A DNA stretch of 52,611 bases from Methylophaga sp. UBA2689 (GTDB taxonomy: Bacteria; Pseudomonadota; Gammaproteobacteria; Nitrosococcales; Methylophagaceae): assembly GCA_002354555.1 (NCBI GenBank), contig DELT01000065.1:1-52611 (forward strand), written 5' to 3'. The notes beneath the pieces are model-generated. The model was not told the origin of the DNA, searched no databases, and saw only the letters and a list, made by a program, of their open reading frames with translations. Shown here piece after piece: positions 46,654 to 50,393 of this stretch; positions within the stretch are counted from its first letter, which is position 1, and each line of letters opens with the position of its first letter. Both the position numbers and the translations under genes were made by a program.

Positions 46654-46896
46654 TTAGGTTTTGCTGGTTTGCTCCCGCAATTGTTTCGCCAAATCTTTCA
46701 CTTTGTCATCAACTACTATTGATTGATTAACCGGCATTAACCGAATGCTGGAAATGGTGGTTTTAAGCTGACGCAAATAGTTACGGCAGTTATGACACAT
46801 AAATAAATGCATTTTAAACGCCATACGTTGCCGAAATGACAGATCTTGATCCAGATAGTCACTGGCAAGTTGTTCAATTTCGCGGCATTTAAGCAT
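46654..46896 (-). CDS. Zinc-finger anti-sigma factor
   Basis: 80 aa starting MLKCREIEQLASDYLDQ; an ATG three codons earlier (46905) overlaps the sigma gene and is also possible. The H-x3-C-x2-C motif (HLFMCHNCRNYL) with an upstream Cys is the ZAS fold of anti-sigma factors. No transmembrane helix follows, so it is a soluble anti-sigma factor that likely reacts to redox or metal. It directly follows the ECF sigma gene. Confidence 0.82.
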   Translation of the reverse strand: MLKCREIEQLASDYLDQDLSFRQRMAFKMHLFMCHNCRNYLRQLKTTISSIRLMPVNQSIVVDDKVKDLAKQLREQTSKT

Positions 46897-46897
46897 G

Positions 46898-47518
46898 TTA
46901 ATCATTATCCTGATATTGAGCGATTTTCTGTTGGATTGCTGATCGTGCACGATGCAGCAACACTCTTGCATTGGACGCAGAGATGTCGAGAATATTACAA
47001 ATTTCTGTCATTGATTCACCTTCCAGATCATAAAGGCTCAATACAGCTTGCTGTTGTGGAGGAAGTTGCTCGAAGGTCTGGCTGATGATGTCGCTGAGTT
47101 CACTATTGGCTAGAATGGCTTCTGGGGTTTCCAGTTCCCATTGAGCAACCGGTTCTTGCCAATGACCAGTATGATCAAAACGATCATCTGTTTCTTTTTT
47201 TTGCCAGTTTTCATCCAGTGAGACCTGACGTTTTTCTCTGCGAAGTCTGGTTTTGGCGGCATTGGCTGTAATTTGAATCAGCCAGGTATTCAGGCTGCTG
47301 CGACCGGCAAATTCACTCAACGAACGAATGGCGGATATCCAGGCATCCTGAGCAATCTCTTCTGCGAAAGCTTCCCCAATAATGGCTTTGGCAATCGTCA
47401 CCATCCTTGGATGATAAAGCGCTACAGCCTTTTCAAAAGCGGTTGAGTCACCTTCAAGCATTGCCGCAATTAATGCAGCATCATTTTCGAAGTGGTGCGG
47501 ATCACGCTTGTCGCTCAT
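46898..47518 (-). CDS. ECF-family RNA polymerase sigma factor
   Basis: 206 aa from the ATG at 47518 (MSDKRDPHHF); the open frame continues upstream without protein character. Region 2 (about 20-90) has YHPRMVTIAKAI and AEEIAQDAWISAIRSLSEF; region 4 (about 135-195) has LPPQQQAVLSLYDLEGESMT and NARVLLHRARSAI. It is co-transcribed with the anti-sigma gene. It is divergent from the EGKCG-repeat peptide gene across a gap of about 330 nt, so it may drive that gene under copper or oxidative stress (inference). Confidence 0.88.
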   Translation of the reverse strand: MSDKRDPHHFENDAALIAAMLEGDSTAFEKAVALYHPRMVTIAKAIIGEAFAEEIAQDAWISAIRSLSEFAGRSSLNTWLIQITANAAKTRLRREKRQVSLDENWQKKETDDRFDHTGHWQEPVAQWELETPEAILANSELSDIISQTFEQLPPQQQAVLSLYDLEGESMTEICNILDISASNARVLLHRARSAIQQKIAQYQDND

Positions 47519-47740: not shown

Positions 47741-47849
47741 AAAGTCGCATAAAAGTTTGTAACAAATGATTTGCTGGTCAGTCTATGTCAACAAGCCCGG
47801 TTATGAACGTCGGGTTAATAATGTGACTCAATACATAAGGAATTAAAAC

Positions 47850-48143
47850 ATGGCTATGAATAAAAAAACTTCTATCGCGTTGGCTGCCAGTGCAGCAATG
47901 ACTGCAGGTCTGGCTTTTTCGCCCATTGCTGCTGCAGATAGCAACCCATTCCAATCAACTGAATTAAGTAATGGTTACATGCAACTGGCTAAACATCACG
48001 AAGAAGGCAAATGTGGCGAAGCCAAGTGTGGTGAAGACACTAAAAAAGATGCTGAAGGCAAATGCGGTGAAGCCAAGTGTGGTGAAGACAGCAAAAAAGA
48101 TGCTGAAGGCAAATGTGGTGAAGCGAAATGCGGTAATAAATAA
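47850..48143 (+). CDS. hvfA: HvfA-type EGKCG-repeat RiPP precursor (copper-binding peptide)
   Basis: 97 aa. A Sec signal peptide (about 1-29, ALAASAAMTAGLAFSPIAAA) is followed by a linker and three copies of EGKCGEAKCG separated by acidic/Lys spacers (EDTKKDA, EDSKKDA), six cysteines in all. In the HvfA/bufferin families these cysteines are turned into oxazolone/thioamide groups that bind copper, by an MNIO (DUF692) enzyme and a partner protein. Neither enzyme is in this window. A clear AAGGA site precedes the ATG, and a strong terminator follows. Confidence 0.82.
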   Translation: MAMNKKTSIALAASAAMTAGLAFSPIAAADSNPFQSTELSNGYMQLAKHHEEGKCGEAKCGEDTKKDAEGKCGEAKCGEDSKKDAEGKCGEAKCGNK

Positions 48144-48165
48144 TCCGTCATTTGTGATTCAAATT

Positions 48166-48194
48166 AAAAACAGGGGCTACAGGCCCCTGTTTTT
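48166..48194 (+). terminator. Terminator/attenuator between the peptide gene and the DoxX gene
   Basis: Perfect stem AAAAACAGGGGC / GCCCCTGTTTTT with a 5-nt loop. It should make the peptide mRNA more abundant than the downstream genes if they share a promoter. Confidence 0.85.
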
Positions 48195-48212
48195 CCTCTA
48201 GGGACAACCACT

Positions 48213-48848
48213 ATGATCCAGTTATTAACAAGTTTACAGCGGTTATTGCATACCACGCGTAATGTGGATTTTTTGGCGCCTTTATTACTGAGAGCTTACC
48301 TGATACCGGTTTTCTGGGTAGCTGCCAATAACAAATGGAACCCATTCAATACTGAGAGTTCATTACAAAACACCATAGACTGGTTTGCCAATCCAGACTG
48401 GGGATTGGGCTTACCGTTTCCCGAGCTGATGGCTTATATGGCCTGGGGTGCTGAATATTTTGGTGCTATTTTATTATTGCTGGGACTGGCTGTACGCTGG
48501 GTCAGTATTCCATTGATGATTACGATGCTGGTTGCTGCGTTCAGCGTTCACTGGAAAAACGGCTGGCAAGCAATTCATGATCCGATGAGCGCTTTTGCTG
48601 CTGAGAACGCTGTTGAAGCTATAGATCGTTTGGATCGGGCCAAATCAATCCTTCAGGAACATGGAAATTATAGCTGGCTGACGGAACATGGCAGCTTTGT
48701 TGTACTCAATAACGGTATAGAGTTTGCCGCAACCTACTTTGTGATGTTGCTGGCATTGTTCTTTATCGGGGCTGGTCGATATGTCAGTGTTGATTACTGG
48801 TTAGCCAAACGTTATCTGCCAAATGAGGTGAATCATGTGGATTCGTAA
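48213..48848 (+). CDS. hvfX: DoxX-family membrane protein, HvfX-like
   Basis: 211 aa with four hydrophobic segments of the DoxX type: [56 protein letters not shown], and [21 protein letters not shown] long soluble loop (about 115-165) lies between helices 3 and 4. This form accompanies HvfA-type precursors and is named as a copper-RiPP maturation or transport partner; the exact role is unproven. Its end overlaps msrP by 14 nt. Confidence 0.8.
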
Positions 48849-49791
48849 AAAACATTCGTGGGATATTCCTGAGTCAGAAGTCACGGACTATCAGGTCTAT
48901 TTAAATCGTCGACAATTTATTAATGGTGCAGCGGGTTTGGCTGCAGCAAGCGCAATGCCTTTGAGTTTTGCTGCTAAAGCCCCCTCAGGGGAAGCTTATG
49001 CTGACCTTCAACCCAGTGACTTTTCTACTGAAGAAAAACTTACGACCTATGAGTCTATTACCACCTATAACAATTTTTATGAATTTGGCACTGACAAGGA
49101 ATCTCCTTCTGCGTTAGCCGCCGATTTTCCTGATCGTAGCAAGCCATGGATGATTACTGTTGATGGCGAGTGCGATAAACCGGGGCAATATGATTACAAC
49201 GAGCTGATAAAAACGCAGACCCTGGAAGAGCGGATTTATCGGCTTCGTTGTGTTGAAGGCTGGTCAATGGTTATTCCCTGGGTAGGCTTTCCTTTAGCCG
49301 AGGTGTTAAAGCAGGCTCAACCCAACTCCAAAGCTAAATTTGTTGAATTTACAACGTTGTATGATCCTGAACAAATGCCAGGGCAACGTCGTCGCGTGCT
49401 CAATTGGCCCTACCGGGAAGGACTTCGTATGGACGAAGCCATGCATCCTTTAACATTGCTGGCTGTTGGTTTATATGGCCGCGAAATGCCGGGGCAGAAT
49501 GGGGCGCCGATACGTCTGGTGGTCCCATGGAAATATGGGTTTAAAAGCATCAAATCAATCGTACGGATCCGCTTTGTAGAGGAAATGCCTTTAACTGCCT
49601 GGGTACAGGCCAATGCCGGTGAGTATGGTTTTTATTCTAATGTAAACCCAGATGTGAATCATCCACGCTGGAGCCAGCGACGGGAAAGACGCATTGGTGA
49701 ATTCCTTAAGCGAGAAACGCTGATGTTCAATGGCTATGGAGACGAAGTCGCAGAGCTGTATAGCGGCATGGATCTTAAACGATATTTCTGA
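48835..49791 (+). CDS. msrP: Periplasmic methionine sulfoxide reductase, molybdenum subunit
   Basis: 318 aa. A Tat signal with twin arginine ([20 protein letters not shown]) exports the folded molybdoenzyme. The molybdenum-ligand Cys139 lies in [37 protein letters not shown] and [20 protein letters not shown] are typical. It reduces oxidised methionine in periplasmic proteins. It overlaps hvfX upstream and msrQ downstream, so the three are co-translated. Confidence 0.95.
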
Positions 49792-50393
49792 TGCAAAAAC
49801 ATATCACCAGTCTGAAGAGGCTGGTTTTTATCATTTCGTTATTACCACTTAGCTGGCTGATTTATGCGTTGCTGACCGATAAGTTGGGTGCTAATCCCAT
49901 AGAGGCGGTGACCCGTGACACCGGCGTATGGGCATTGCGCTTTATTATGGTGACGTTGCTGATCTCACCGTTACGTAAACTGACGGGCATCAACCACTTT
50001 ATTCGGTTTCGCCGAATGCTGGGTCTTTTTGCTTTCTTTTATGCCAGCGTGCATATGCTGCTGTACCTCGGACTGGACCAGTTTTTTGATATACAGGAGA
50101 TATGGCTGGACATTGTAAAACGTCCTTTTATCACCATTGGCTTTATCAGCTTTGTCCTACTGATTCCATTGACGATTACTTCTACCGACAAGATGATGAA
50201 AAGGCTTGGTGGCCGGCGCTGGAAAAAATTACATTATTTAATTTATCTTATTGTCGTGCTTTCTTGTTTGCATTTTTATATGCTGGTCAAGCAAGATAAA
50301 ACTGAACCATTAATTTATTTATTCATTGCTATCCTGTTGCTTGGCTTCAGGGTCTTCAGCCAGCGCCGGCGTAGTCAATCAGCCGCTTCATAA
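49791..50393 (+). CDS. msrQ: Heme-binding membrane subunit of MsrPQ
   Basis: 200 aa with about six transmembrane helices of the ferric-reductase-like fold. Histidines for heme are visible in FYASVHMLLYLGLD and KKLHYLIYLIVVLSCLHFYM. It passes electrons from the quinone pool or flavin to MsrP. The ATG shares one base with the msrP stop codon. Confidence 0.94.
   Translation: MQKHITSLKRLVFIISLLPLSWLIYALLTDKLGANPIEAVTRDTGVWALRFIMVTLLISPLRKLTGINHFIRFRRMLGLFAFFYASVHMLLYLGLDQFFDIQEIWLDIVKRPFITIGFISFVLLIPLTITSTDKMMKRLGGRRWKKLHYLIYLIVVLSCLHFYMLVKQDKTEPLIYLFIAILLLGFRVFSQRRRSQSAAS

Follow-up and report, generated by a model that had tools for sequence, protein, structure and literature searches.

The stretch of DNA analysed here, referred to as the window, spans 52,611 nucleotides of Methylophaga sp. 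UBA2689 (contig DELT01000065.1; G000:C68 in the present sample), and its positions 47850-50393 on the forward strand comprise hvfA, hvfX, msrP and msrQ. The first of these genes encodes the precursor of a ribosomally synthesized and post-translationally modified peptide (RiPP), and the favoured reading of the locus, held at a probability of roughly 75%, is that it houses one half of an HvfA/oxazolin-type (captophorin-type) pathway that is split over two loci under a single extracytoplasmic function (ECF) sigma factor, forming a copper/oxidant stress regulon together with MsrPQ. The case is built from sequence, namely the gene content of the two loci, the recurrence of the split among relatives, promoter boxes shared by both loci, a sigma factor gene adjacent to hvfA and a hairpin behind it.

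The precursor and its maturation enzymes

The precursor gene lies in the window, and the genes for its putative maturation enzymes lie on another contig (C15) of the same genome (G000). Protein families were called with NCBIfam and Pfam models, with scores given in bits against the cut-off of each model.

47850..48143, + strand: hvfA, 97-residue EGKCG-repeat RiPP precursor with a signal peptide and six Cys residues (repeat scan, NCBIfam)
C15:51201-51986, same strand as hvfC: hvfB, multinuclear non-heme iron-dependent oxidase (MNIO; DUF692, PF05114), HvfB equivalog (447.9 against 360)
C15:52033-52290, same strand as hvfB: hvfC, DUF2063 (PF09836) partner protein, HvfC equivalog (298.8 against 142)

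The KCG motifs of HvfA fall at residues 54, 59, 71, 76, 88 and 93 and make up three EGKCGEAKCG units with a period of 17 residues behind a signal peptide assigned by eye, as a first-pass annotation of this DNA had described. The same annotation called the peptide HvfA-type, which holds at the level of the repeat domain (KCGExKCG_twice, NF050137, of the HvfA family; 73.1 bits, over the cut-off of 19.5) but not at that of the full-length HvfA equivalog NF050188 (57.1 bits, under the cut-off of 95). On these scores HvfA is a relative within the wider HvfA family, outside the NF050188 equivalog. It possesses the signal peptide and 17-residue repeats, each with two KCG motifs, by which type 1 Buf_EGKCG (HvfA/oxazolin) precursors are defined. 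Exact EGKCG-coding DNA occurs at 3 sites across the genome, all of them in hvfA (backwards control, 0), and a search of the genome for a DUF2282 gene returned no match; this and all other absences reported for G000 are bounded by its completeness of 90.85%.

No DUF692 or DUF2063 gene stands beside hvfA, and the description of the precursor as being without its maturation enzymes is thus true of the locus. It does not extend to the genome, where a complete search, as the first-pass annotation had proposed, found one PF05114 gene and one PF09836 gene that are neighbours on C15; this single hvfB-hvfC pair rules out a genome without maturation enzymes. Precursor and enzymes are consequently not clustered in G000 but reside on different contigs. 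That the enzymes are encoded elsewhere, one of two options raised in the annotation, is strongly supported by an hvfBC pair that has no repeat gene of its own, by the co-occurrence of the two halves and by their common promoter type, and the other option, a peptide that works unmodified, was judged not to be needed. A small Cys-rich open reading frame or cysteine-repeat gene was looked for ahead of hvfB in G000 and none was found, nor did a full set of hvfABC genes with a precursor of its own turn up at another locus, the finding that the annotation had set against its proposal.

HvfB, HvfC and HvfX all score above their equivalog cut-offs within this genome, and HvfB matches a solved DUF692 structure (3bww; E-value 4.4e-78). 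It is 64% and 59% identical to the MNIOs of G049 and G048, both encoded beside EGKCG-type genes, and eight other MNIOs share 36-43% identity with it; the four of these from the window's family (f1) sit beside CKGHNDCK-type genes.

Recurrence of the split in the family

Genomes searched for these genes numbered 58, of which 35 belong to family f1 (G000-G034, including G000). In 32 of the 35, hvfA lies beside msrP; G008 and G022 have no exact EGKCG match and carry an EAKCG version of hvfA instead, and neither hvfA nor msrP was found in G011, G019 and G024. An MNIO match was obtained in 30 of the 35, with none in G001, G011, G019 and G020 (55-85% complete) or in G024 (1.1 Mb, complete). When the count is limited to the 27 f1 genomes that are at least 90% complete, 26 hold both halves, never adjacent to one another, and G024 lacks the two; for G004 and G029 the MNIO match is taken without closer inspection. 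Where both halves fall on one contig, hvfA and hvfBC are separated by approximately 49 kb (G010), 50 kb (G009), 100 kb (G007), 129 kb (G017), 157 kb (G018), 523 kb (G005) and 600 kb (G015), and in the remaining f1 genomes with both halves they are on different contigs.

Second MNIO clusters with two or three CKGHNDCK-type genes are present in G033, G029, G005 and G016 (L008, L010, L012 and L015), and these stand apart from the hvf system. An additional, lower-scoring MNIO (approximately 275-289 bits) is found in G004, G008, G015, G022 and G023, all of the window's genus.

A neighbouring sigma factor, and promoter boxes shared by the two loci

Facing hvfA on the opposite strand are the genes of a sigma factor and an anti-sigma factor, and the hvfA promoter lies between hvfA and the sigma gene:

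46898..47518, - strand: sigma factor gene of the ECF type, transcribed away from hvfA (Pfam Sigma70_r2, r4_2 and ECF above cut-off)
46654..46896, - strand: zf-HC2 zinc-finger anti-sigma gene (Pfam zf-HC2, 43.5 against 22.2; NCBIfam anti-sigma, 68.4 against 50)
47758..47785, + strand: ECF-type promoter of hvfA, TGTAACA-N16-GTCTA, its end 64 bp ahead of the ATG (alignment of f1 genomes)

The sigma protein scores 94.6 bits against the NCBIfam sigma70-ECF superfamily (cut-off 42.9). The start of the anti-sigma gene was set at the Met of MLKCREIEQ, with both family scans using a longer reading of 105 residues, and its HxxxCxxC motif was spotted by eye. An ECF sigma gene is divergent upstream of hvfA in all 20 relatives fetched for comparison of gene order at this locus, farther off in G012 and G020, and the anti-sigma gene adjoins it in 18 of the 20. 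The window contains an adjacent ECF sigma and anti-sigma pair, an ECF-type promoter at the peptide gene and MsrPQ downstream, as do ECF sigma/repeat-peptide/MsrPQ regulons of the BcrXQP and MrpX type. Both this pair and the hairpin behind hvfA were missed in the first-pass annotation.

The boxes TGTAAC-N17-GTC are found ahead of hvfA in 31 of 32 f1 loci (29/29 aligned, including G000, plus G032 and G025) and again 28-42 bp ahead of hvfB in 27 of 28 f1 genomes, the latter count covering 28 of the 30 f1 genomes with an MNIO (G004 and G029 were left out). At the second locus they fall between hvfB and the gene of the preceding protein, P0007, wherever P0007 is present. The strict 12-base form, TGTAACA-N16-GTCTA, was found in 15 of 23 genomes searched and has one site in G000, at hvfA; apart from this site, the window has no TGTAACA-N-GTCT site. 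The neighbouring sigma factor would be the one that reads the boxes of both hvfA and hvfB.

Further sites of this type may extend the candidate regulon. Of 19 dsbD loci from the window's genus (G003 left out), 15 have one ahead of the gene, mostly 58-61 bp upstream; it is absent in G009, G010, G011 and G012 and from all 6 loci of the next family. The DsbD protein scores 431 bits against its model (cut-off 330), and the site suggests a thiol-redox arm of the regulon. A similar ECF-type site exists in G000 (L264) and in G007 (L253), in the latter ahead of a gene for an Slp-like lipoprotein (64.4 bits, below the cut-off of 88.45). The dsbD and Slp-like sites are the weaker evidence, because common ancestry alone would preserve such sequence among close relatives.

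Linkage to hvfX, msrP and msrQ

Behind hvfA, the forward strand of the window continues as follows:

48166..48194, + strand: terminator-like hairpin in the hvfA-hvfX gap, with a stem of 12 bp and a U-rich 3' arm
48213..48848, + strand: hvfX, DoxX-family membrane protein, HvfX equivalog (NF050144, 236.6 against 80; Pfam DoxX, 69.9 against 23.6)
48835..49791, + strand: msrP, periplasmic molybdoenzyme, catalytic subunit of methionine sulfoxide reductase (NF003767, 472.7 against 207)
49791..50393, + strand: msrQ, heme-binding membrane subunit (NF003831, 191.7 against 130)

MsrP and MsrQ both exceed their equivalog cut-offs, and MsrP matches the PDB structure 1xdq (E-value 4e-96); the predicted model of HvfX is of poor quality, with a mean predicted local distance difference test (pLDDT) score of 67.9. 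The overlapping reading frames described in the first-pass annotation are confirmed, hvfX and msrP sharing 14 nt and msrP and msrQ sharing 1 nt. The order hvfA-hvfX-msrP-msrQ is repeated in relatives and the locus is therefore not a chance arrangement.

The claim that hvfA is joined to MsrPQ survives in part. The locus is shared and recurrent, but the 69-bp gap between hvfA and hvfX holds the hairpin, which argues against a simple, equal co-transcript. Similar hairpins occur in 22 of the 28 f1 loci scanned, G000 counted (28 of 30 loci were scanned, and a misassigned gene start may account for some of the misses); the hairpin of the window is absent from the consensus-scan listing. Such a structure could stop many transcripts after hvfA, so that the peptide would probably be made in excess over HvfX and MsrPQ, and "joined" is probably best understood as a common locus with read-through.

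Alternative explanations

The linkage could simply reflect ancestral gene order, with no function in common, and hvfA could form a separate unit that stops at the hairpin. That the hairpin is so frequent is consistent with this view and also means that co-transcription of hvfX-msrPQ with hvfA may be weak. The flanking genes on both sides (an ABC transporter gene and, after msrQ, what is presumably aceE, named from its sequence) are syntenic in relatives as well. Beyond the family the linkage is rare: in a survey of HvfX (60 of 185 genomes above cut-off, 30 loci taken, flanks of approximately 1.5 kb), msrP adjoins hvfX in 3 of 3 f1 loci and in 0 of 27 from other families. Of the best 80 of at least 591 msrP loci, all from taxa other than f1, a single one has hvf genes close to msrP. 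Mere inheritance is nevertheless unlikely, as the hvfA-hvfX gap has no TGTAAC-N-GTCT-type site in a search of the window, a sigma-70 consensus scan gave no forward promoter ahead of msrP, and hvfX and msrP overlap. Moreover, msrPQ accompanies hvfA in a different order in G049 and in a single gene run in L111, and a published ECF-peptide-MsrQP operon follows the same logic (PMC8315932).

It is likewise rather improbable that a general ECF sigma factor for envelope stress reads the TGTAAC/GTC boxes in place of the sigma factor beside hvfA. This promoter shape is common among ECF sigma factors, and dsbD carries the box even in G019, where hvfA was not found; on the other side stand the sigma gene next to hvfA in every relative fetched and the single strict site in G000. 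Other features of the boxes count against a shared promoter. G028 keeps TGTAACA at hvfA with GTATA in place of GTCTA, and the hvfB promoter of G007 keeps the -35 box alone, with no strict -10. The 66 sites found in 547 kb of relatives' loci around hvfA and hvfB, compared with 7 for the reversed pattern, come from loci chosen around these genes and show position, not enrichment; by reading of the listing 20 are ahead of hvfA and 18 ahead of hvfB, and by pattern 14 are inside the sigma gene and 6 are of another recurrent form. A looser pattern gave no genome-wide enrichment (ten genomes yielded 73 sites, with 76 for the control, and G000 yielded 7, with 10 for the reversed control), and the promoter argument therefore rests on conserved position. 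The 14 TGTAAC...CGTC sites on the sigma strand were rejected as promoters, being in frame within conserved sigma region 4 and probably reflecting coding conservation, as were the 6 sites of the other form and one inside a cold-shock-like gene.

The most improbable of the alternatives is that HvfA acts in its unmodified form, buffering metals through its thiols, and that hvfBC serve another substrate, most likely P0007. This secreted protein of approximately 250 residues (L002:4348-5097, G000:C15) has no Pfam match, and its gene precedes hvfB in G000 and in 16 of the 19 relatives fetched at the hvfB locus, with a CGC motif invariant in 16 of 16 aligned; it could be a rival substrate, and small Cys-containing precursors are reported often to lie directly upstream of MNIO genes (PMC12452194). 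Its AlphaFold2 model (mean pLDDT 76.9) matches mostly generic immunoglobulin-like and complement proteins; the Helicobacter pylori copper protein CrdA stands at rank 28 of the matches, over 119 columns. In G026, G030 and G033 no P0007 gene adjoins hvfBC and hvfA persists, and the ECF-type promoter sits between P0007 and hvfB, leaving P0007 upstream of it. Among the 182 class-sample genomes from other families, 5 carry a homologue, and none of these has an hvfB or hvfC match within the fetched flanks of up to 1.5 kb; the hvfBC genes themselves match the HvfB and HvfC equivalogs. P0007 was rejected as the main substrate of HvfBC and is favoured as a neighbour. Two further observations weigh against the split pathway: hvfA occurs without an MNIO match in G001 (55% complete) and G020 (85%), and the MNIO of G038, from another family, is 67% identical to HvfB without an adjoining EGKCG gene.

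Proposed model

In the split pathway as favoured here, locus 1, in the window, would provide the sigma and anti-sigma pair facing hvfA, followed by hvfX-msrP-msrQ, and locus 2, on C15, would provide hvfBC behind the same promoter type. Envelope stress by copper and/or oxidants such as hypochlorous acid (HOCl) would cause the zinc-finger anti-sigma factor to free the sigma factor, whereupon hvfA and hvfBC would be transcribed together. HvfBC could then act in trans and turn the repeat cysteines of the HvfA KCG motifs into 5-thiooxazoles before Sec export, and the exported peptide would buffer Cu(I), and probably oxidants too, in the periplasm. MsrPQ would meanwhile reduce methionine sulfoxide with electrons from the quinone pool, HvfX may serve the peptide in some way, and the hairpin after hvfA would probably yield a surplus of peptide over HvfX/MsrPQ.

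The modification and copper binding of HvfA are proposed because characterised relatives do so (PMC13097082), and the envelope oxidant response because of the analogy with BcrS-BcrXQP (PMC8315932); together, the chemistry reported for the relatives and this analogy favour a copper/oxidant regulon with a modified Cys peptide. The joint copper/oxidant response put forward in the first-pass annotation is strengthened by the promoter common to hvfA and hvfB, by the dsbD promoter seen in most loci of the genus and by the BcrXQP precedent, and may well be what the locus serves. A bolder proposal, possible but tentative, is that a thiooxazole RiPP replaces the Met-rich sacrificial peptide of an ECF-sigma/MsrPQ oxidant defence: ring thiols would scavenge hypochlorous acid or copper-generated oxidants, DsbD/HvfX would carry out recycling and MsrPQ the methionine repair, in one regulon over at least three loci.

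Gene-neighbourhood mining would class both hvfA and the C15 enzyme pair as orphans. Their shared promoter and co-occurrence pair them, and offer a route to pairing other orphans. The arrangement would also connect thiooxazole peptides with the redox repair of methionines, and perhaps of disulfides, in the periplasm, and through the MsrPQ link the role of EGKCG peptides in the cell, whether in copper, oxidants or both, becomes directly testable.

Comparison with known systems

Elements of this arrangement recur outside the family. A Chromatiales metagenome-assembled genome (L111, 3350-7601) has hvfA-hvfB-hvfC-hvfX-msrP-msrQ as consecutive genes of the same strand, and G049 has msrP-msrQ-hvfA-hvfB-hvfC in one locus; among the best 80 of at least 591 msrP loci plus L214, hvf genes were near msrP in L111 and L214 alone. 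The one-locus clusters of hvfX and hvfABC in G122 (L339) and G166 (L340) include an ECF sigma gene whose product is approximately 30% identical to that of the window, and the 9-10 kb fetched for each showed no msrP match. Linkage to a sigma gene and linkage to MsrPQ are thus both found outside the family, and within the genomes searched their combination with the split was seen in f1 alone.

The HvfABCX oxazolin, fontiphorin and gonophorin (captophorin) pathways share with the present system an EGKCG-repeat precursor with a signal peptide, the HvfB-type MNIO, its HvfC-type DUF2063 partner and HvfX; relatives are reported to show 5-thiooxazole chemistry and to bind copper, and a mass loss of 8 Da is reported for a two-repeat peptide (PMC13097082). 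Unlike these pathways, the present system has the precursor and HvfX at one locus and the enzymes at another, along with a neighbouring ECF sigma, a zf-HC2 anti-sigma and the linkage to MsrPQ. The ECF16 systems BcrS-BcrXQP and SigF-MrpX-YedYZ also pair an ECF sigma and anti-sigma with a periplasmic repeat peptide and MsrPQ and have TGTAAC as their -35; in BcrS-BcrXQP the sigma factor drives a Met-rich peptide and MsrQP from an operon induced by HOCl (PMC8315932). The peptide of the window differs in being a Cys-repeat and presumably enzyme-modified peptide rather than a Met-rich one, the anti-sigma is zf-HC2 rather than a six-transmembrane DUF1109 protein, and the -10 is GTC rather than CGAA. 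By analogy, the present system would work like the BcrXQP/MrpX regulons but is not a member of them.

Buf1 bufferin clusters are likewise MNIO RiPP clusters that may hold a sigma gene, there with NrsF, and differ from it in their DUF2282 precursor family and in the anti-sigma (PMC12452194). Antoine et al. (PMC12452194) report that oxidored_molybd or ferric-reductase genes accompany EGKCG clusters in small numbers, and suggest that a bufferin precursor with no MNIO gene nearby might receive its modification from a second locus; relative to the Buf_EGKCG clusters as described in the accessible text of that work, the split with a shared promoter, the EGKCG-linked sigma and the family-wide case are distinct. 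A search of the open-access literature for MsrP with DoxX, or for an MNIO with methionine sulfoxide reductase and a sigma factor, found none. What is new here is the family-wide recurrent split, the ECF-type promoter that ties its halves together and the parallel with known peptide-MsrPQ regulons.

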